DNA of 64,000 bases. Origin: Paracoccus marinus (GTDB lineage Bacteria; Pseudomonadota; Alphaproteobacteria; Rhodobacterales; Rhodobacteraceae). Numbering within the stretch: position 1 is the stretch's first letter; each line of letters opens with the position of its first letter. Position numbers and translations under genes: made by a program. Of this stretch, positions 21,013 to 30,288 are shown in pieces. Where the stretch lies: positions 62,001 to 126,000 of the forward strand of contig NZ_VJYZ01000007.1 of assembly GCF_007018965.1 (NCBI RefSeq), given 5' to 3'. The notes under the pieces were generated by a model that saw nothing but the letters and a program-made list of their open reading frames with translations, had not been told where the DNA came from and searched no databases.

Positions 21013-22323
21013 TCAGATCCCCAGCCGGTCGCGCAGCCCGTACCACGACATGCCCGCCACCAGCAGCGGAAGCCGCAGCGCCGCGCCGCCGGGAAACGGC
21101 CGCTGCGGCAGCGCGGCCATGACGTCGAACCCGTCCGACTGCCCCTGCACCGCCTGCGCCATCAGCTTGCCGGCAAGGTTCGCAAGCGCGACCCCGTGCC
21201 CCGAATAGCCGCTGGCCGACAGGCAGTTCGGCGCGGGTCGCGCGAACACCGGCATCCGGTTCATCGTGATCGCCAGCGTCCCGCCCCAGGCGTGGGTGAT
21301 CGCCACGTCCCTCAGCTGCGGATAGACCTGCAGCATCGCCCGCCGGACCTTGCCGGCAATGTCGCGCGGGAACCGGTAGCCCACGTTCTCGCCGCCGCCG
21401 AAGATCAGCCGCCCATCCGGCGACATGCGCCAGTAATTCACCACGAAGCGGGTGTCGTGAACGGCGATGTCGCGGGCCAGCACGTCGCGGGCGCGGTCGC
21501 CCAGGGGCTCGGTCGCGACGACGAAGTTGTTGATGGGCATGACGCGCGCGGCGACGTGGCGGTCGAGCCTGCCCAGATAGCCGTTCGCGGCCAGGATCAC
21601 GTGGTCGCAGAGGACGCTGCCCGCATCGGTGTGAACCCGGCTTGTCGCGCCCGCGTGCGGGCCGTGGTCGATGCGGGTGACGTGGCTCAGTTCGTGGATG
21701 ACGGCGCCCGCGGCCTCGGCCTGCCCGGCGATCCCCAGCGCCAGCGCCAGCGGGTCCAGATGCCCCGACCCGTGATCGATGTCGCCGCCGACATAGGCGT
21801 CCGACTTCACCAGCGCGCGCAGGCCCTCGCGGTCCAGCTTCTCGATCCGGTCATAGCCGTAGTCGCGCGCCAGCCGGTCGGCCATCCCGTGCGCATGCGC
21901 GACCTCGGCCGTGGTGCGCGCTGCATGCGCGATGCCGGGGTGAAAGGCGACGCCCGACGCGCGGGCGAGCGACAGGGTCAGCGCCTTCGCCTCCTCCGCC
22001 ATGTCCCACAGGCGGCGGGCGGCGGCCGGTCCCGCCATCCGCTCCAGCTCATCGACCTCGAGCCGCTGCCCCGATCCGACCTGCCCGCCGTTGCGCCCCG
22101 ACGCGCCGAAGCCCGCGCGATGCGCCTCGATCACGACCACGCGCCGGCCCGCGCGGGCAAGATGCAGCGCCGCCGAAAGGCCGGTATAGCCCGCGCCCAC
22201 GACCGCCACGTCGGCCCGCACCTCGCCCCGAAGCGCGGGCCGGTCCGGCGCGCGGGCCACCTGATCGGCATAAAGGCTGGGCGGATAGGCCCCGCGGGTG
22301 TCGTTGGAAAACAGCAGGTCCAT
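21013..22323 (-). CDS. FAD-dependent oxidoreductase, PuuB-like
   Basis: A 436-residue DAO-type flavoenzyme. The dinucleotide-binding motif is VVGAGYTGLSAALHLARAG at about residue 41, followed by EAHRAGFGASGRNGGQV, a motif shared with gamma-glutamylputrescine oxidase and related amine oxidases. The C-terminal half has NYWRMSPDGRLIFGGGE and SASGYSGHGVALANLAGK. By family it oxidises an amine to an aldehyde and ammonia. It is the last gene of a block with two glutamine-synthetase-like ligases, which supports action on a gamma-glutamyl amine. The exact substrate is not evident. Confidence 0.88.
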   Translation of the reverse strand: MDLLFSNDTRGAYPPSLYADQVARAPDRPALRGEVRADVAVVGAGYTGLSAALHLARAGRRVVVIEAHRAGFGASGRNGGQVGSGQRLEVDELERMAGPAAARRLWDMAEEAKALTLSLARASGVAFHPGIAHAARTTAEVAHAHGMADRLARDYGYDRIEKLDREGLRALVKSDAYVGGDIDHGSGHLDPLALALGIAGQAEAAGAVIHELSHVTRIDHGPHAGATSRVHTDAGSVLCDHVILAANGYLGRLDRHVAARVMPINNFVVATEPLGDRARDVLARDIAVHDTRFVVNYWRMSPDGRLIFGGGENVGYRFPRDIAGKVRRAMLQVYPQLRDVAITHAWGGTLAITMNRMPVFARPAPNCLSASGYSGHGVALANLAGKLMAQAVQGQSDGFDVMAALPQRPFPGGAALRLPLLVAGMSWYGLRDRLGI

Positions 22324-22386
22324 CGCGGGCGCCTGTTCTTCTTTGCGGAAAATATCCCGGGGGTCCGCGGGCCGGCCCCCGGTCCG

Positions 22387-23742
22387 TCAGACGTTCAGCA
22401 GCAGATGCTCGCGTTCCCACGGGCTGATGACCTGCAGGAACTCCTTGTACTCGTTGCGCTTCACCGCCTCGTAGATATCGACGAACTGCGTCCCCAGAAC
22501 CTCGCGCATGGGGGCCGACGCCGCCATGTAGTCCAGCGCGGCGCCCAGATCGGTCGGCAGGTCGTCATGCGACATGTAGGCATCGCCGAGGCATTCGGGG
22601 CGCGGGTTGGCCTTGTCGATCAGCCCCAGGTACCCGGTCGCAAGCGACGCGGCGAGGCCCAGATAGGGGTTGCAGTCCATCCCGGCCAGCCGGTTTTCCA
22701 GCCGCCGCGCCTCGGGGTCCGAGATCGGGACCCGCAGCCCGGTGGTGCGGTTGTCGCGGCCCCATTCAAGGTTGATGGGCGCGGCGAAGTCCGGGACGTA
22801 GCGGCGGTAGCTGTTGACGTAGGGCGCGAGCAGGGCCACGGCAGCCGGCAGGTGGTTCTGCATCCCGGCGATGAAGTGCAGGAACTCCGGCGTCTCGCGG
22901 CCCTTGTCGTCCGAAAAGATGTTGCGCCCGGTGGTGGCGTCCACGACCGAGTGATGGATGTGCATGGCGCTGCCCGGCTCGCCCTCGATCGGCTTGGCCA
23001 TGAAGGTGGCGAAGCAGTCGTGGCGCAGCGCCGCCTCGCGGATCAGGCGCTTGAAGTAGAAGATCTGGTCGGCCAGATGCACCGGGTCGCCGTGGGCCAA
23101 GTTGATCTCGACCTGGCCCGCGCCGCCTTCCTGCAGGATGCCGTCGATCTCGAACCCCTGCGCCTCGGCGAAGTCGTAGATGTCGTCGATGACCTTGCCG
23201 TATTCATCGACCGCCGACAGCGAATAGGCCTGCTTGGCGGCCGCACGGCGCCCCGATCGGCCCATCGGCGGCAGGATCGGCTGGTTGGGGTCGATGTTGC
23301 GCGCGACCAGGAAGAACTCCATCTCCGGCGCCACGATCGGGCGCCAGCCGCGGTCGGCGTACATCTTGACCACGCGTTTGAGGACGTTGCGCGGCGCGGT
23401 TGGGATCGGCTCGCCCTGCTGGTCCAGCACGTCGTGGATCACCTGCAGCGTCCAGTCGGCGGTCCAGGGGGCGGCGGCCGTCGTCTCGAAGTCGGGCACG
23501 CAGACCATGTCGGGCTCGGTAAAGGCGCCGTGCGGGTTGTCGGCCCATTCGCCGGTGATCGTCTGCAGGAAGATGCTGTTGGGAAGAAAGAAGCTCGTCT
23601 GCCGCGCGAACTTGGACGCGGGCATGGCCTTGCCGCGCGCGACGCCCGCGATGTCGGGGACGATGCATTCGACCTCGTCCAGCCTGCGGTCGGCGAGGTA
23701 GCGGCGCGCGGCCTCGGGTGTGTTGGTAAGCCAGTCTGCCAT
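22387..23742 (-). CDS. Glutamine synthetase family protein (PuuA-like)
   Basis: A 451-residue GS-fold ligase starting MADWLTNTPEAARRYL. GS catalytic features are present: APEMEFFLVARN, GGAGQVEINLAHGDP, SAMHIHHSVVD, and ENRLAGMDCNPYLGLAASLA. The C-terminal LEWGRDNRTTGLRVP matches the ATP/glutamate region. The adenylylation loop of biosynthetic GlnA is absent, and the sequence is of the gamma-glutamyl-polyamine synthetase group, which attaches glutamate to putrescine or other amines. The open frame continues 118 codons upstream, but that part is not coding. It is followed by the PuuB-like gene after 63 bases. Confidence 0.9.
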   Translation of the reverse strand: MADWLTNTPEAARRYLADRRLDEVECIVPDIAGVARGKAMPASKFARQTSFFLPNSIFLQTITGEWADNPHGAFTEPDMVCVPDFETTAAAPWTADWTLQVIHDVLDQQGEPIPTAPRNVLKRVVKMYADRGWRPIVAPEMEFFLVARNIDPNQPILPPMGRSGRRAAAKQAYSLSAVDEYGKVIDDIYDFAEAQGFEIDGILQEGGAGQVEINLAHGDPVHLADQIFYFKRLIREAALRHDCFATFMAKPIEGEPGSAMHIHHSVVDATTGRNIFSDDKGRETPEFLHFIAGMQNHLPAAVALLAPYVNSYRRYVPDFAAPINLEWGRDNRTTGLRVPISDPEARRLENRLAGMDCNPYLGLAASLATGYLGLIDKANPRPECLGDAYMSHDDLPTDLGAALDYMAASAPMREVLGTQFVDIYEAVKRNEYKEFLQVISPWEREHLLLNV

Positions 23743-23783
23743 GGGGTCTTTCCGCCGGATCATGGTCCGGCCTGGTTTCGGTC

Positions 23784-24416
23784 TCAGGCGCGGGGGATGA
23801 CCCCGGCCATCGGGTTCTGTCGCGCGGCCAGCCCGTCGATGACGCCCGCGCGGTCGGCGGCGGGGCGGTTCTGGCTGGCCTTCCATTTGCCCGCGATCGC
23901 CGTGACGGGAATCTCGACCCCGACGATCCCGCGCAGTTGCGATGCGATGAAGGCGTCGGGCGCGTCGCCCACGCCCCACGGCGCGGGCTCGGACGATTCC
24001 AGCCGGTCGGTCAGGTCGGCCACTTGCGCGCGCAGCCAGTCCGCGTCGTCGATCACGCGGGGAACGCCCCGCACCTGCACCGCAAGGTAGTTCCACGTCG
24101 GAACGACCTTGCCGGTTTCCGCCTTGGTCGCATACCAGGCGGGCGAGACGTAAGCCTGCGCGCCCTGAAAGAGGACAAGGACGGGCGCGCCCGCCTGTTC
24201 CATTGCCCGCAGATCGGCCAGCTGACCGTTCGCGCGGGCGAGATGGGCGCGCAGGACGGCCGGCGCGCCGTCGCCCGCCGGGAGATGGACGACCGGGATC
24301 AGGTTCGCGGTCAGGCCGTTCTCGCCGTGAGTCACAACGGTTGCCAGCGGATGGGCGGCCATCAGGGCCGTCAGCATCTCTGGCCGGTCCTCGGCAAAGG
24401 CGGGCGGCACGTACAT
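23784..24416 (-). CDS. FMN-binding negative transcriptional regulator, PaiB-like
   Basis: A 210-residue split-barrel flavin-fold protein starting MYVPPAFAEDRPEML. PaiB motifs: HPLATVVTHGENGLTANLIP, LRAHLARANGQ, QGAQAYVSPAWYATKAETGKV (with PTWNYLAV), and ASQNRPAADRAGVIDGL near the C-terminus. Bacillus PaiB was named for repressing sporulation and protease genes; later relatives are viewed as flavin- or haem-binding enzymes, so a regulatory role here is not certain. Its ATG overlaps the stop of the amidotransferase gene by one base (TGATG), so they are translationally coupled. Confidence 0.86.
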   Translation of the reverse strand: MYVPPAFAEDRPEMLTALMAAHPLATVVTHGENGLTANLIPVVHLPAGDGAPAVLRAHLARANGQLADLRAMEQAGAPVLVLFQGAQAYVSPAWYATKAETGKVVPTWNYLAVQVRGVPRVIDDADWLRAQVADLTDRLESSEPAPWGVGDAPDAFIASQLRGIVGVEIPVTAIAGKWKASQNRPAADRAGVIDGLAARQNPMAGVIPRA

Positions 24417-25144
24417 CAGGCGGCCCCGGCGACGGAGCCTGCCGCGTCCGCAGGCGCGCCTGCGGTCCGCTGCGCGGCGGGGTCCTTGAAGAACGCAGCG
24501 ATGCGGTTGGCGAGCGCGGCCGGTTTCGCCTGGCCGCGCCGGGTCCGCGCCTCGTCCAGCAGCGCGGGCGGGACCGCGCCGCCGCGGTGTTCCATCAGCC
24601 CGTCGATGAACGGGTCGGGAAACTCGGGGTGCGGCTGCACGGTGAAGGCGCGGTGGTCATAGACCAGCGCGGCGGCCTGGCAGAACTCGTTCGTGCCCGC
24701 GATCTCGGCCCCCGGCGGCAGGTCCACGACCTGATCCTGATGCCAGGCGTTCAGCACCATCGGCCGCCCGTCGATCACGTAGTCATGCGCGCCCACGCGC
24801 CAGCCCTCGGGGTGCTTCACGACCCGTCCGCCCATCGCCTGCGCGATGATCTGGTGGCCGAAGCAGACGCCGACCAGCGGCACGCCTTCGGCGAACGCCG
24901 CGCGTATGAAATCCTCGAGCGGGGCGATGAACGGGTGATCCTCATAGACGCCGTGGCGCGACCCGGTGATGAGCCAGCCGTCCGCGTCGTGAACGCCCGC
25001 CGGGAACTGCATCGCCTCGACGTGGTAGCTGGCGAAGGTGAAGCCGCGGCCCGCCAGAAGCCGTTCGAACATGTCGTCATAGTCGCCCATCTCGGCCCGC
25101 AGGACGTCGGGCGACTGGCCGCATTTCAGGATGCCGATCCGCAT
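24416..25144 (-). CDS. Class I glutamine amidotransferase
   Basis: A 242-residue protein starting MRIGILKCGQSPDVLR. The nucleophile Cys is in PLVGVCFGHQIIAQAMGG, and the His and Glu of the triad are in VQPHPEFPD. Stand-alone class I amidotransferases next to GS-like and FAD-oxidase genes act as gamma-glutamyl hydrolases, freeing glutamate from a gamma-glutamyl product, the PuuD role. The ATG at 25142-25144 was chosen because the longer frame adds 40 Arg-rich residues. Its end overlaps the PaiB-like gene. Confidence 0.88.
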   Translation of the reverse strand: MRIGILKCGQSPDVLRAEMGDYDDMFERLLAGRGFTFASYHVEAMQFPAGVHDADGWLITGSRHGVYEDHPFIAPLEDFIRAAFAEGVPLVGVCFGHQIIAQAMGGRVVKHPEGWRVGAHDYVIDGRPMVLNAWHQDQVVDLPPGAEIAGTNEFCQAAALVYDHRAFTVQPHPEFPDPFIDGLMEHRGGAVPPALLDEARTRRGQAKPAALANRIAAFFKDPAAQRTAGAPADAAGSVAGAA

Positions 25145-25281
25145 GTGATGCTCGTGTTGTTCGTGCCGGAAGGTAAGCCCGCGTCGTCCGGCCCGCAAGC
25201 CTGCTAGCCTGCGGAGGGTGTTGCCAGAGTCCGGCTTTTGGTTCCCCCTACGAACACCGCGCATCGGTCGGACGCGCGAAG

Positions 25282-25303
25282 CGCCCCCGGCTCACCGGGG
25301 GCG
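25282..25303 (-). terminator. Terminator after the second GS-like gene
   Basis: A nine-base-pair GC stem (CGCCCCCGG / CCGGGGGCG) with a CTCA loop lies 19 bases after the stop at 25322. There is no long T run, so it may be a weak or bidirectional terminator. It separates the ABC-transporter/GS transcript from the amidotransferase-PaiB-GS-oxidase genes. Confidence 0.55.
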
Positions 25304-25321
25304 TTCGTTCACGCGGCAGCG

Positions 25322-26653
25322 TCAGACGGTGTCAAGATACAGCTCGACCGTTTCCTCGTCCGACAGCTCGGCCATGTAGTGCAGCTCCTGACGCTTGGTC
25401 ATGACGTAGTTCTCGATGAGGTGGTCCGGGAAGATGCGCCGGATCTCGGGCGATTTCTCGAAGCAGTCGATCGCGTCGCCCCACGAGGTCGGCAGCTGCG
25501 CCAGCCCCTGGTCGTAGGCGTTGCCCCTGATCGGGGCAGGGGGCTCGACCCTGTCCTCGATCCCGTTCAGCGCCGCGCCAAGAACCGCCGCGACGGTCAG
25601 ATAGGGGTTCACGTCGCCGCCCGGGGTCCGATGCTCGATCCGGCGCGCCTTGTTGCCGGATGACGGAATGCGGATCGCCGAGGTGCGGTTTTCGTAGGCC
25701 CAGCCGATGCCCGTGGGCGCGTGGGCGTTCGGGACCAGCCGGTCGTACGAGTTTTCGTGCGGCGCGAACAGCAGCGTCGATCCCGGCATCGCCGCAAGGC
25801 AGCCCTGCACGGCGTGGCGCAGAACGTCCGACCCTTCGTCGGTGCCGTCGTCAAAGACGTTCTCGCCGTCCTCGTCCAGCACCGAGAAGTGCATGTGCAT
25901 GCCCGAACCGTTGAACAGCTCGTAGGGTTTGGCCATGAACGATCCCGCAAAGCCGTAGCGGCGCGCGACCCCCTTGACCAGCTGCTTGAAAAGCCAGGCG
26001 TCGTCCGCCGCCTTCAGCGGGTCGGGCTGGTGCATCAGGTTGATCTCGAACTGCCCCGGCGCCGCTTCCGAGATCGCGGTGTCGGCGGGCACGTCCATCG
26101 CCTCGCAGGCGTCGTAAAGGTCGGTGAAGAAGCTGTCGAAAGCGTCGAGCGCGCGCAGGCTCAGCGTCTCGGCCCCGGTGCGGCGCTTGCCCGAACGCGG
26201 GCTGGGCGGCACCTGCAGATGCTTGCCGGAATCGTCGATCAGGAAGAACTCGAGCTCGGTCGCCACGACCGGCGTCAGGCCCGCGGCCTTGTAGCGTTCC
26301 ACGACGCGGGCAAGCGCGTGGCGGGGATCGCCCTCGTACGGGCGCCCGTCGGGATGGAACATCCACAGGGGCAGAAGGCCGGTCGGCGCCTGCAGCCACG
26401 GCATCGGCATGAAGCCGCGCTCGGTCGGCATCAGCACACCGTCGGGGTCGCCCGCCTTGAAGACGAGGGGGCTGTCCTCGATGTCCTCGCCCCAGATGTC
26501 CATGTTCAGCACCGAATAGGGGAACTTGGTCCCTTCGGTCAGCAGCTTCTCGGCGAAACGTGCGGGCATGCGTTTGCCGCGTGCGACGCCGTTCAGATCG
26601 GCAGCGGCCACGCGGATCGTTCTTACCTCGGGATGTTCCCTCAGCCAGTCCAT
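25322..26653 (-). CDS. Glutamine synthetase family protein (second copy)
   Basis: A 443-residue GS-fold ligase, clearly different from the copy at 22387-23742. Motifs: ATELEFFLIDDSG, EAAPGQFEINLMHQPDP, GSGMHMHFSVLDEDG, APHENSYDRLVPNAHAP and RIEHRTPGGDVNPYLTVA. It also lacks the GlnA adenylylation site and belongs with gamma-glutamyl-amine ligases. AGGTGA lies six bases before the ATG at 26651-26653. It starts five bases after the stop of the upstream permease gene, so it is co-transcribed with the importer, which suggests it acts on the imported substrate. Confidence 0.9.
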   Translation of the reverse strand: MDWLREHPEVRTIRVAAADLNGVARGKRMPARFAEKLLTEGTKFPYSVLNMDIWGEDIEDSPLVFKAGDPDGVLMPTERGFMPMPWLQAPTGLLPLWMFHPDGRPYEGDPRHALARVVERYKAAGLTPVVATELEFFLIDDSGKHLQVPPSPRSGKRRTGAETLSLRALDAFDSFFTDLYDACEAMDVPADTAISEAAPGQFEINLMHQPDPLKAADDAWLFKQLVKGVARRYGFAGSFMAKPYELFNGSGMHMHFSVLDEDGENVFDDGTDEGSDVLRHAVQGCLAAMPGSTLLFAPHENSYDRLVPNAHAPTGIGWAYENRTSAIRIPSSGNKARRIEHRTPGGDVNPYLTVAAVLGAALNGIEDRVEPPAPIRGNAYDQGLAQLPTSWGDAIDCFEKSPEIRRIFPDHLIENYVMTKRQELHYMAELSDEETVELYLDTV

Positions 26654-26658
26654 GATTG

Positions 26659-27486
26659 TCACCTGATAAGGTTCGGCCGGTATCTCGGCCGTTGGGCGGC
26701 ACCCGGCAGGTGCCGGTTGAGCCGCCGATTGAAGACCCCGAAGATACCGATCAGGCACAGGGTCAGGAGGATGAAATACACCGCCGCGATCGGATAGGCC
26801 ACGAACGGGTTGAAGGTCTTGTCCACGATGTAGCTGGCATAATACAGCGCGTCGCCTTGCTGGCGGAACGCCGGGAAGCTGGAAAAGAACACCAGCGTTG
26901 TGGCGTGGAACAGGAAGATCGCTTCGTTCGTGTAGGCGGGCCAGGCGAGTCGCAGCGCGGTCGGCCAGACGATCCGGCGGAACCGCGCCCAGCCCGACAG
27001 GCCATAGGCGTCCGCCGCCTCGAGATCGCCACGGGGAACGTTCCGAAGCGCGCCGTAGAAGATTTCGGCGGAATAGGCGGCGGTATTGAGGATCAGGACG
27101 ATCAGCGCCCCGGCCCAGGCGCGCGACAGCCACGCGGTGGGCAGGGTTGCGCCGAAGATCTCGATCCCTTCCCGTGGCAGCAGGACGAACGCCTGGTAGG
27201 CCACGAAGAACTGGATGAAGAGCGGGCTGCCCCGGAAGACGAAGATGAACGCCTCGGCCGGGACCCGCAGCCACCTGATGCCGCCCGCCTTGGCGAGCGC
27301 GAGCCCGGTGGCAAGGCAGAACCCGATCGCGAGCGACAGCGCCCCGAAATAGAGGTTCCAGATCATCCCCGACCCGATCAGGACGACCTGCCGGCACAGC
27401 GTCATGTCGCCGGCGGGCAGCTTGAACTGCCCCATCCCGACCGAGCGCAGCGCGAAGTCGGCGAAATCCTGGGCGCAGGCGCTCAC
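26659..27486 (-). CDS. Polar amino acid ABC transporter permease (HisM-like)
   Basis: A 275-residue inner-membrane permease with about five helices. It has FVFRGSPLFIQFFVAYQ and the EAA-loop region RGDLEAADAYGLSGWARFRRIV. The GTG start at 27484-27486 overlaps the stop of the partner permease (GTGA), so the two are coupled. An unusual feature is a 33-residue N-terminus before the first helix. It pairs with the upstream permease as a heterodimer, as HisQ/HisM do. Confidence 0.86.
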   Translation of the reverse strand: MSACAQDFADFALRSVGMGQFKLPAGDMTLCRQVVLIGSGMIWNLYFGALSLAIGFCLATGLALAKAGGIRWLRVPAEAFIFVFRGSPLFIQFFVAYQAFVLLPREGIEIFGATLPTAWLSRAWAGALIVLILNTAAYSAEIFYGALRNVPRGDLEAADAYGLSGWARFRRIVWPTALRLAWPAYTNEAIFLFHATTLVFFSSFPAFRQQGDALYYASYIVDKTFNPFVAYPIAAVYFILLTLCLIGIFGVFNRRLNRHLPGAAQRPRYRPNLIR

Positions 27487-28364
27487 GGCGTCACCTCGTG
27501 GCGGATCGCCTCGCCGGCCATGGTGGCCTGACCGCGCGAAAGCCTGCGCGCCACGCGGTCGATCAGCCGCTGCGAAACCCAGGTCATCAGCAGGTAGAAG
27601 ACGAGCAGCCCAAGGAAATACCAGACCCGCCAGTCCGGGTGTGGATAGGCGAAGTTCGCGGGCTTGGTCGCGCCGAGGTCGCGGGCCCAGTAGACGATGT
27701 CCTCGATCCCCAGCAGGAACAGCAGCGGCGTGGCCTTTATGAGCACCATCCACAGGTTCGACAGCCCCGGCAGCGCATAGGTCCACATCTGCGGGATCAG
27801 GACGCGGCGGGTCAGCTGGCGTTCGGACATGCCGTACGCCTCGGCCGTTTCCAGCTGCGCGCGCGGGACGGCGTTCATCGCCCCGCTGAGGACGTTGGCC
27901 GCGAACGCGCCGAACACGATGGCAAAGGCGATCACCGCCAGCGTGAAGCCGTAGCTCTGGTGAACCCAGGGCGCGGCGGTGGACAGGGGAAGTTTCGCTG
28001 CCTGGCAGACGACGAACTCGTTGCCTTGCCGGACGGGCACCGAGGGGTCGCAGTAGACCCGGCTGCGCAGCCATTCGAACGACTGGTCAAGCGCAATGGG
28101 CACGAACAGGAAGAAGATGATGTCGGGCACGCCGCGCACCATCGCCGTGTAGATCCGCCCGAACCAGCGTAGCGGCGCGATCCGCGACCGCGACGCCACC
28201 GCGCCGCCGAACCCGAACAGAAGCGCCAGCGGCGCCGTCACGGCAAGCAGCAGCAACACGGTGCCGAACGACCCGTAGAACAGCAGGTGCTTGCCGGACG
28301 TCAGATAACACGCCAGCCAGGCCAGCCCGTTCAGGGCGGAGGGATCGGAGCAGGTTGCGAACAT
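27483..28364 (-). CDS. Polar amino acid ABC transporter permease (HisQ-like)
   Basis: A 293-residue permease. Family features: the RGVPDIIFFLFVP segment after helix 2 and the EAA loop NAVPRAQLETAEAYGMSERQLTRRVLIPQ. Between helices it carries a longer periplasmic loop (about residues 105-145, with two Cys) than most HisQ proteins. The ATG at 28362-28364 (MFATCSDP) is preferred to a start nine codons upstream. A strong hairpin separates it from the binding-protein gene. Confidence 0.87.
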   Translation of the reverse strand: MFATCSDPSALNGLAWLACYLTSGKHLLFYGSFGTVLLLLAVTAPLALLFGFGGAVASRSRIAPLRWFGRIYTAMVRGVPDIIFFLFVPIALDQSFEWLRSRVYCDPSVPVRQGNEFVVCQAAKLPLSTAAPWVHQSYGFTLAVIAFAIVFGAFAANVLSGAMNAVPRAQLETAEAYGMSERQLTRRVLIPQMWTYALPGLSNLWMVLIKATPLLFLLGIEDIVYWARDLGATKPANFAYPHPDWRVWYFLGLLVFYLLMTWVSQRLIDRVARRLSRGQATMAGEAIRHEVTP

Positions 28365-28380
28365 GGCGATCGGAGAGCGA

Positions 28381-28410
28381 CCGCCGCACACCGGGCGCGG
28401 TGTGCGGCGG
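28381..28410 (-). other. Intercistronic stem-loop between binding-protein and permease genes
   Basis: A perfect 12-base-pair stem (CCGCCGCACACC / GGTGTGCGGCGG) with a six-base loop lies 11 bases after the binding-protein stop. There is no T run. Hairpins at this place in ABC importer operons often protect the upstream mRNA or cause partial termination, so the binding protein is made in excess over the permeases. Confidence 0.6.
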
Positions 28411-28421
28411 CGCGCGTTGGG

Positions 28422-29333
28422 TCAGTTCGTGGCGGGTGCGGCGGGCGCGGCGGGTGCGGCGGACGCCGGCGCGCCGGTCGCGGGGGCCGGCGCGGTCGCG
28501 GCGGCGCCGGTCGGCGGCACGGTTGCGGGCGCGGTGCCGGTGGTGGCGCCCATCGTGGTGCCAGTCGTGGCGCCGGCGGTGGCGCCAGCCTTCGATGCCT
28601 CGAAGCTTGCGAAGGTCTCGGTCTTGTCGCCCAGCCACTTGGTGATCAGCGCGTCCAGCGACCCGTCGGCCTTCATGTCGGTCAGTGCCTTGTCGAAGCG
28701 CGCCTTCAGCTCGGTGTCGGATTTCCGCATCCCGATGCCCAGCCCCTCGGCCAGAACCAGGTTGTCCTGCCCCGTGATCCAGGACAGCTCGCCGTTCGAT
28801 GCCGTGACCAGCGGGGCCGCGAACTCGCGGTCGGCCAGCACCGCCTCGGCCTCGCCGTTGCGGACGGCGGCCACGGCCTCGTCGAAGGTGCCGAACTCGA
28901 GCAGGTCTGCGCCCGACGCCGCCACGTGGGAGGACTGGACCGTGCCGGTCTGCGCGGCGACGACGCCGTCGATGGGCGCGTCGGCGGACAGGCCGACATA
29001 GCCCGACGCGGGCGGCGGGGTGTAGGGGATCGAGAAGGCGATCGCCTGCTTGCGTTCCTCGTTGATGTTCATGCCGGCCATGATCGTGTCATAGTTCGAC
29101 GACACGAGGTTCGGAATGATCGAGTCCCACTCGTTGCGGACCCAGGTGCATTCGGCCTCGATCCGCTTGCACAGCTCGTTGCCGAGTTCGATCTCGAACC
29201 CGTCGAGCTCACCCTTGTCGTTGATGAAGTTGTAGGGTGCGTAGGCGCCTTCGGTGCCCATGCGGATCGTGTCGGCGGCGGCCATGCCGGCGGTCAGGGC
29301 CAGCGCGGCGGTGGCGAGCAGAAGCTTCTTCAT
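28422..29333 (-). CDS. Periplasmic amino-acid binding protein (HisJ family)
   Basis: A 303-residue solute-binding protein. The signal peptide is residues 1-20 (cleavage after GMAAA). The family-3 binding fold follows: TIRMGTEGAYAPYNFINDKG, GFEIELGNELCKRIEAEC and YDTIMAGMNINEERKQAIAFS. The folded domain ends near residue 246. It is followed by a 56-residue tail made almost only of Ala, Thr, Gly and Pro, ending PAAPATN, which is unusual for this family. The tail could be a flexible tether. GGGAGA is the ribosome-binding site. Confidence 0.9.
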   Translation of the reverse strand: MKKLLLATAALALTAGMAAADTIRMGTEGAYAPYNFINDKGELDGFEIELGNELCKRIEAECTWVRNEWDSIIPNLVSSNYDTIMAGMNINEERKQAIAFSIPYTPPPASGYVGLSADAPIDGVVAAQTGTVQSSHVAASGADLLEFGTFDEAVAAVRNGEAEAVLADREFAAPLVTASNGELSWITGQDNLVLAEGLGIGMRKSDTELKARFDKALTDMKADGSLDALITKWLGDKTETFASFEASKAGATAGATTGTTMGATTGTAPATVPPTGAAATAPAPATGAPASAAPAAPAAPATN

Positions 29334-29433
29334 TCAGGCAGTCTCCCGTTGGTGGTGTGGCCCGGTTGGTCGGGCGCTGGTTATGGCGAGGTGCGGGCGC
29401 GCGCAGGGCGGCGGGTTTGGTCCGGGGGCGAGG

Positions 29434-30288
29434 TCACGACGGCATCGTCGCGCTGATGAACTGGCGCAGCCGGTCGGTGCGGGGGGTGCGGAAGATCTGT
29501 TCGGGCGGGCCTTCTTCCTCGATCCGGCCCTTGTGCAGGAACACGACGTGGTCGCTGACGTCGGCCGCCAGCCGCATGTCGTGGGTGACGAGGATCATCG
29601 TCCGATGCTCGTTCGCCAGGTCCTTGATGACCCGCACGACTTCCTGCTGCAGTTCGGGGTCGAGCGCGCTGGTCGGTTCGTCGAAAAGCAGGGCGCGCGG
29701 CTCCATGCACAGCGCGCGGGCGATCGCGGCGCGCTGCTGCTGGCCGCCCGAAAGCTGCGCGGGCCAGGCGTCGGCCTTGTCGCCGATGCCGACCTTGGCA
29801 AGCAGCATCCGCGCCCGCGCCTCGACCTGCGCCGGATTCTGGCGCAGCACGGTCACCGGCGCTTCCATCACGTTCTGCAGGATCGTCAGGTGCGCCCACA
29901 GGTTGAACTGCTGGAACACCATCGCAAGGTTGGTGCGGATGCGGCGCAGCTGGTCGCGGTCGGCGGGGCGGCGTTCGCGGGCGGGGCCCGTCCAGCGCAC
30001 CGGCTCCCCCTCGAACAGGATGGTGCCGGCCTGGCTGCTTTCCAGAAGATTGCAGCAACGCAGCAGCGTGGATTTGCCCGACCCCGACGACCCGATCAGC
30101 GTCACGACATGCCCCCGGGGCGCGCTGAGGCTAACGCCCTTGATGACCTCGAGCGGGCCGTACGCCTTGTGCAGATCGCGCAGTTCAATGACAGGGCTCG
30201 CGCCCGGTGCCGCCGCCGCTGCCTGCGCCGACTTCTGGGCGGCAAAGGCGGGGTCTGCGGCGGGCTGGAAAGGGGTGGACGCTGTCAT
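29434..30288 (-). CDS. Polar amino acid ABC transporter ATP-binding protein (HisP family)
   Basis: A 284-residue ATPase. Walker A is IGSSGSGKSTLLRCCN, the Q-loop is VFQQFNLWAHLTILQNV, the signature is LSGGQQQRAAIARAL, Walker B is ALLFDEPTSALDPE, and the switch His is in THDMRLAADVSD. An Ala/Gln-rich leader of about 33 residues precedes the domain. It is the first gene of the importer block, 100 bases ahead of the binding-protein gene. The ATG at 30286-30288 was chosen; the open frame extends 77 codons upstream into non-coding sequence. Confidence 0.9.
   Translation of the reverse strand: MTASTPFQPAADPAFAAQKSAQAAAAAPGASPVIELRDLHKAYGPLEVIKGVSLSAPRGHVVTLIGSSGSGKSTLLRCCNLLESSQAGTILFEGEPVRWTGPARERRPADRDQLRRIRTNLAMVFQQFNLWAHLTILQNVMEAPVTVLRQNPAQVEARARMLLAKVGIGDKADAWPAQLSGGQQQRAAIARALCMEPRALLFDEPTSALDPELQQEVVRVIKDLANEHRTMILVTHDMRLAADVSDHVVFLHKGRIEEEGPPEQIFRTPRTDRLRQFISATMPS

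Follow-up and report, generated by a model that had tools for sequence, protein, structure and literature searches.

Which substrate is served by an operon that sets enzymes of the gamma-glutamylation type beside an importer for amino acids? The question is raised by nine genes on the minus strand of a 64,000-nucleotide stretch of the Paracoccus marinus genome (contig NZ_VJYZ01000007.1; the whole stretch is called the window here, and positions are counted within it). They run from 30288 down to 21013 and encode, in order, an ATP-binding cassette (ABC) ATPase, a binding protein, two permeases, a first ligase resembling glutamine synthetase (GS1), a glutamine amidotransferase (GAT), a PaiB-like protein, a second such ligase (GS2) and an oxidase (Ox). 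The Pfam matches across the cluster are ABC_tran, SBP_bac_3, BPD_transp_1 (twice), Gln-synt_C (twice), GATase (PF00117), FMN_bind_2 (PF04299) and DAO. An earlier note, made from the sequence alone, had named these genes in this order on a single strand, all of which are present in the window, and had proposed a gamma-glutamyl amine-breakdown-type cluster, a proposal now supported by a ligase tree and by active-site residues. From the sequence evidence we regard the gamma-glutamyl chemistry as well supported. We hold with about even confidence that the operon would import lysine, that a decarboxylase would turn it into cadaverine, and that the cadaverine would be broken down by way of gamma-glutamyl intermediates in a Puu/Spu-like manner. 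The sequence shows the gene set, the clades of the ligases, their residues, the conserved gene order and the type of importer; lysine/cadaverine as the substrate, each reaction and the order of the reactions are what we infer. The features of the cluster, all on the minus strand, are these:

29434 to 30288, minus strand: importer ATPase of the HisP/EhuA/GlnQ type; the best NCBIfam match is PRK10619 HisP at 314 bits, under its cut-off of 466
28422 to 29333, minus strand: basic amino-acid-type periplasmic binding protein that carries a C-terminal tail; closest to 3i6v, then NocT and LAO
27483 to 28391, minus strand (start 28391 or 28364): importer permease Q; PF00528, ArtQ/HisQ-like
26659 to 27486, minus strand: importer permease M; PF00528, HisM-like
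25322 to 26653, minus strand: GS1, presumed gamma-glutamyl-amine ligase on the PuuA/SpuI side, by identity, residues and tree
25282 to 25303, minus strand: GC hairpin between GS1 and GAT, from folding; without a U run
24416 to 25144, minus strand: GAT, class-I glutamine amidotransferase and presumed gamma-glutamyl hydrolase; PF00117
23784 to 24416, minus strand: PaiB-like protein, probably a haem protein and an accessory insert; PF04299
22387 to 23763, minus strand (start 23763 or 23742): GS2, glutamine-synthetase-like ligase on the SpuB side, by identity, residues and tree
21013 to 22323, minus strand: Ox, FAD-dependent PuuB-like oxidase, by DAO (PF01266) and identity to PuuB

The two ligases speak most directly to the chemistry. 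Three genes of the whole genome match PF00120, namely GlnA, GS1 and GS2. Measured against the E. coli proteins, GS1 is 36.5% identical to PuuA and 28.5% to GlnA, and GS2 is 35% and 30% identical to them, respectively; GS2 is also 50% identical to the SpuB-position genes of two loci (L173 and L174) taken up below. Ligase residues were read from the alignment in GlnA numbering, with presumed roles for the sites (ammonium site, catalytic). Both proteins keep E129, E131, E212, E220, H269, R321, R339, R344, R355, E357 and R359. The ammonium-site pair D50/E327 is replaced by N/H in GS1, by L/A in GS2 and by A/Y in PuuA, and at N264 GS2 has P where PuuA has A. GS1 is unlike PuuA at positions 50, 179 and 327, where it carries N, L and H. 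In a maximum-likelihood tree of 41 rows, for which the tool issued a long-branch warning, GS1 joins the PuuA/SpuI-like rows (support 97/94) as a clade of its own (100/100), GS2 joins the SpuB-like rows (100/99), and both lie outside GlnA and GSIII (100/99). Neither the tree nor the active-site residues therefore place the pair in the GlnA or GlnIII clades, the outcome that the earlier note had named as fatal to its proposal, and the GSIII/TIGR03105 model (cut-off 469.6) is not reached by the two ligases (207 and 220 bits). That GS1 and GS2 are duplicate ammonium glutamine synthetases is rejected on the tree together with the lost D50/E327, despite GlnA being their top NCBIfam match. A role for the GS-like genes in glutamine-lipid synthesis was also set aside, the term glutamine synthetase being absent from PMC6298996.

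Ox is 39.5% identical to E. coli PuuB across 425 residues; a sequence search at E <= 1e-10 returned no solved relative of it. GAT matches PF00117 at 56 bits. Its match to PF07722, the PuuD-type hydrolase model, reaches 24.7 bits over 34 residues only, though this is over the cut-off of 20.5, and its match to PuuD itself is short and weak (39 aligned residues, E 0.001); GAT was not classed as a PuuD-type hydrolase. The triad Cys94/His172/Glu174 is intact in 74 of 74 aligned rows, a count that omits 7 of 80 loci through coverage and identity filters, and the nearest solved relative is gamma-glutamyl peptidase 1. GAT may perform the PuuD step using another kind of protein.

The gene set recurs well beyond this genome. 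At E <= 1e-120, a threshold that also lets in copies of about 55% identity possibly outside this operon, 229 of the 248 Rhodobacteraceae genomes sampled have GS2 and 183 have GS1. Among 73 compared genomes with both ligases, 67 have GS1 and GS2 within 6 kb; 64 of these near pairs are co-directional with GS1 first, and 58 leave a gap of 686-949 bases. We also compared 80 named loci found through GS2, in which the nearest named GS2 relatives are Paracoccus. GAT is present in all 80 and lies directly upstream of GS2 in 79, Ox is present in 71 and lies within 1.5 kb downstream of GS2 in 70, GS1 is present in 38, and the binding protein in 35, always accompanied by GS1 (35/35). Because GAT-GS2 recurs in 79/80 loci and GS2-Ox in 70/80, the association is not a matter of chance. 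A further 20 distant family loci (L122-L141) were picked for GS1-GS2 closeness, so that evidence can come from their remaining genes alone. All 20 carry GAT, 18 carry Ox and 18 the four importer genes; an aminotransferase is present as the DegT type in 16 and as class III in another 2. The usual order in Rhodobacteraceae is importer-GS1-GAT-GS2-Ox-aminotransferase.

The aminotransferase varies among relatives. Among 64 loci with full flanks, DegT is seen in 16, class III in 10 and class V in 26, with one of the three families in 50. Class V occurs in 30 of the 80 GS2 loci; since all of these are Paracoccus, the mutual exclusivity of the families is confounded by ancestry. The class V protein is distantly PhnW/BhcA-like, and its gene is divergent from GAT (L044, L011, L020, L021 and others). 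The idea that the window cluster has a fixed aminotransferase member was rejected: there is none here, and in relatives the nearby gene comes from three unrelated families. Divergent additional sets in two other Rhodobacteraceae genomes, L182 with a GS2-like gene (57%) and two Ox-like genes, and L166 with counterparts of GAT, GS1 and GS2 and two of Ox (39-56%), suggest paralogous units for other substrates.

One feature that sets the operon apart is its importer, which the earlier note had held not to be of the PotFGHI polyamine type; the binding protein and the models agree, being of the basic amino-acid/HisJQMP type. An alignment-based model of the binding protein (predicted local distance difference test score, pLDDT, 89.9; a single-sequence model reached only 37.5) finds its best match in 3i6v, with Z 29.4, a root-mean-square deviation of 2.5, 218 aligned residues and 57% identity. 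This structure comes from Silicibacter (Ruegeria) pomeroyi, and its title as displayed ends "...in complex with ly", which we take to be lysine. With homology at this identity, the binding protein of the cluster may bind lysine. PMC8786288 gives 3I6V as A. variabilis, contrary to the PDB title, and we have followed the title. A SpuDEFGH-type polyamine importer is not in the locus, and the best match in the genome to the SpuD/E-position protein has 54 bits and 27% identity. The binding protein carries a C-terminal tail of about 60 residues, rich in Ala, Pro and Thr (28422-28605, minus strand), that is shorter in four Paracoccus relatives (L036, L039, L043, L051) and missing from most of 29 aligned relatives. 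Use of opines was considered, NocT being the second-best binding protein, yet no opine enzyme was found by family among the nine genes. The same genome encodes another importer of polar amino-acid type (locus L159, about 322.5-334.5 kb of another contig), beside a cluster that by eye we take to be for ectoine degradation. Ectoine was rejected as the role of the present operon, an ectoine-like cluster with its own importer sitting elsewhere.

The favoured lysine reading would proceed as follows. The importer would take up L-lysine or a close basic amino acid, and a decarboxylase encoded elsewhere would convert it into a diamine, lysine giving cadaverine. GS1, GS2 or both would attach glutamate to one amine at the expense of ATP; Ox, or an aminotransferase of the kind that adjoins the core in many relatives and is encoded elsewhere in this genome, would take off the second amine, leaving an aldehyde. 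This aldehyde would be oxidised by a dehydrogenase encoded outside the cluster, and GAT would strip the glutamate to leave 5-aminovalerate for a GabT/PuuE-type transaminase. The genome holds candidates for the outlying steps: an ornithine/lysine decarboxylase-like gene, nine matches to the aldehyde dehydrogenase family PF00171 outside the cluster (the best one 36% identical to PuuC), an aminotransferase on another contig that is 76% identical to the operon-linked class III protein, and another aminotransferase 60% identical to PuuE. Divergent from the decarboxylase gene lies a short gene that by eye we took for an Lrp/AsnC-type regulator. According to PMC5653290, when P. inhibens is fed 13C-lysine the label reaches cadaverine, 5-aminopentanoate, glutarate, pipecolate and 2-aminoadipate, together with six more strongly labelled compounds left unidentified there. 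PMC10130141 assigns the uptake of cadaverine, putrescine and spermidine in R. pomeroyi to potFGHI, and an amino-acid importer beside these enzymes hence needs another explanation. The case for lysine drawn from labelling, uptake assignment and genome enzymes is circumstantial.

Several observations weigh against this account. Both ligases have GlnA as their top NCBIfam match (231 and 244 bits, cut-off 429), score 202 (GS1) and 186 bits (GS2) against the gamma-glutamylputrescine synthetase model NF045547 with its cut-off of 650, and have ammonium glutamine synthetases as their closest solved relatives; at these scores the curated models are not decisive for either. The top NCBIfam match of Ox is the L-pipecolate oxidase AmaA (185 bits, cut-off 600). 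By Pfam, the nine genes include neither an aminotransferase nor an aldehyde dehydrogenase, the latter as the earlier note had observed of PuuC. Ornithine decarboxylases and lysine/ornithine decarboxylases fit the decarboxylase about equally well, and in NCBIfam it finds lysA only, far under cut-off. NocT (opine) proteins rank next among the binding proteins. According to PMC5653290, P. inhibens also runs a pipecolate route, and the P. inhibens and R. pomeroyi data would bear on the operon only if these relatives carry it. Finally, only 33 of the 64 full-flank GS2 loci have GS1, which indicates that the two halves can separate.

Three other accounts draw on these same observations. One is that putrescine or spermidine made in the cell is degraded, with the importer supplying arginine or ornithine as a precursor. 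GS1-, GS2- and Ox-like genes do occur in polyamine-type loci, the binding protein belongs to a class that takes lysine, arginine, ornithine and opines, and the decarboxylase fits ornithine decarboxylases about equally; we nevertheless think this route unlikely, though credible, because the closest solved binding protein, 3i6v, is a crystal complex with what we presume is lysine. The passage of 13C-lysine into cadaverine in a family member, as described in PMC5653290, argues against it as well. An account that dispenses with decarboxylation has GS1 glutamylating the side-chain amine of lysine or ornithine directly, Ox or an aminotransferase acting on the alpha-amine and GAT freeing the product. 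In its favour, the importer travels with GS1 in every binding-protein locus (35/35), GS1 forms its own clade and differs from PuuA at 50, 179 and 327, and an aminotransferase of one of three unrelated families stands in 50 of 64 full-flank loci; the far-under-cut-off match of Ox to L-pipecolate oxidase would also fit. This second account is nonetheless improbable: the characterised close relatives are known to act on amines, the pocket residues give no sign of carboxylate binding, and a curing experiment in P. inhibens links pipecolate use to a plasmid gene, even if the pipecolate and the six unassigned compounds that the same organism makes from lysine (PMC5653290) speak for it. Equally improbable in our view is that importer-GS1 and GAT-GS2-Ox are independent neighbours with separate substrates. 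GAT-GS2 stands without GS1 within reach in 42 of 80 loci, some of them short-flanked, and GS1 points in the opposite direction in 3 of 80 loci and 3 of 67 near pairs. In the window a hairpin with a 9-bp GC stem (25282-25303; z -3.1 for the fold of the 71-base stretch) stands between GS1 and GAT. The earlier note had called this a terminator, a label that we withdraw: the hairpin is strong, yet it has no U run, was not listed by the terminator scan and is not a canonical intrinsic terminator. Against two separate units, GS1 lies just upstream of and co-directional with GS2 in 64 of 67 near pairs, and the gap in 58 of them would hold one GAT gene.

The PaiB-like protein raises a separate question, namely whether it belongs to the route at all. 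Its best solved relatives are PaiB, proteins named as FMN-binding, piperazate synthase and NohD. According to PMC13274692, PaiB and the piperazate synthases both contain haem, while PaiB is without N-N bond-forming activity. When residues were matched by eye, on alignments to solved relatives, to the haem-site residues named in that source, His58, Asn63, Thr107 and Lys179 were kept in 11 of 11 aligned in-cluster copies, a count that omits none of the 10 PaiB loci. With both PF04299 and the haem-site His, Asn, Thr and Lys present, the protein is probably better named a haem protein than a flavoprotein; of the earlier description as a PaiB-like flavoprotein, the family stands and the flavin probably does not, since the solved relatives bind haem. 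Of the 248 family genomes sampled, 8 have the gene at E <= 1e-40, the window's own included. It lies between GAT and GS2 at 10 of the 80 named GS2 loci and at 0 of the 20 more distant ones; among 11 loci around PaiB relatives, 9 have GAT-PaiB-GS2 and two (L016, L017) do not. So sporadic a presence argues against a core role, which we reject on this distribution, and neither these counts nor the haem of the solved relatives support the earlier suggestion that the protein uses flavin within the route or acts as its sensor. The gene was probably inserted later between GAT and GS2, and the protein is an optional, lineage-specific addition outside the core steps. The one-base overlap with GAT that the earlier note had described does exist, base 24416 being common to the GAT stop and the PaiB start, and could favour a functional haem enzyme of the route where the gene is present, for example one dehydrating an N-hydroxylated amine intermediate, as the name NohD, suggestive of water removal from such an intermediate, and the four haem/catalytic-site residues kept in all in-cluster copies would allow. 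We consider this most unlikely given its rarity among the loci, the lack of an N-hydroxylase among the nine cluster genes and the same residues in PaiB, which is without N-N bond-forming activity according to PMC13274692. Very unlikely, too, is a combined scheme in which a gamma-glutamyl amino acid formed from imported L-lysine is the working intermediate, and in which the PaiB-like haem protein of some Paracoccus and other Rhodobacteraceae would act in an additional step on a by-product that is N-hydroxylated.

Just upstream of the importer, the window holds a TerB-like gene (PF05099; 30378-30833, minus strand) and a DUF1330 gene (PF07045; 30905-31198, minus strand). Because TerB-like genes recur in 16 of 20 distant family loci and DUF1330 genes in 9 of 20, both may be part of the neighbourhood.

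Given the number of family genomes with the ligases at that threshold (229 of 248 for GS2, 183 for GS1), the operon looks like common metabolism of an abundant bacterial family, a family-wide gene set that joins probably known chemistry to a different importer and a substituted hydrolase. Our literature searches, in which most matches were judged without their text, found no published description of it. If the link between operon and lysine is true, it would connect a lysine-crystallised binding protein with enzymes and with the cadaverine and 5-aminopentanoate that have been measured.

The relation to characterised systems became clearer from a phylum-wide search, which gave matches in 71 of 299 genomes at E <= 1e-110. 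Twenty loci were fetched, two of which (L170, L180) had no called genes, probably since the gene caller was trained on high-GC genes, and further misses are possible. L173 and L174 hold a PuuA-like gene divergent from a PuuD-like gene, a GS2-like gene (50%), a class III aminotransferase, two binding proteins, an ATPase and permeases. By sequence this is the spuI/spuABCDEFGH layout, with names that follow PMC10606097, PMC11879879 and common usage. The alphaproteobacterial locus L167 combines GS1-like, GS2-like, class III aminotransferase and Ox genes with those of an importer; by eye, the binding protein of this importer looks PotF-like. The similar core suggests that the Rhodobacteraceae operon has had its importer exchanged. 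Both PMC10606097 and PMC11879879 treat spu clusters and gamma-glutamylation involving putrescine, cadaverine and hexamethylenediamine.

The Pseudomonas spu locus shares with this operon a pair of SpuI-side and SpuB-side ligases, a hydrolase-type enzyme, an adjoining ABC importer and, in some relatives of the operon, a class III aminotransferase; it differs in having SpuDEFGH and a PuuD/SpuA-type hydrolase where the present cluster has a HisJQMP/lysine-type importer and a PF00117 protein, and the window cluster has a built-in PuuB-like oxidase and lacks a SpuC-type class III aminotransferase. E. coli Puu (puuPADRCBE) likewise has a PuuA-like ligase without the ammonium site and a PuuB oxidase, whereas the present cluster has no PuuC, PuuD-type, PuuR, PuuP or PuuE gene and instead has two ligases and an amino-acid importer. 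The LAO, NocT and 3i6v systems, with HisQMP-type importers, agree in binding-protein family and importer architecture; unlike them, the operon links these to gamma-glutamylation-type enzymes and its binding protein bears a long low-complexity C-terminal tail. PaiB, NohD and piperazate synthase share the PF04299 family and the four haem-site residues with the PaiB-like protein, which differs from them in being placed within an operon of the amine-catabolic type.

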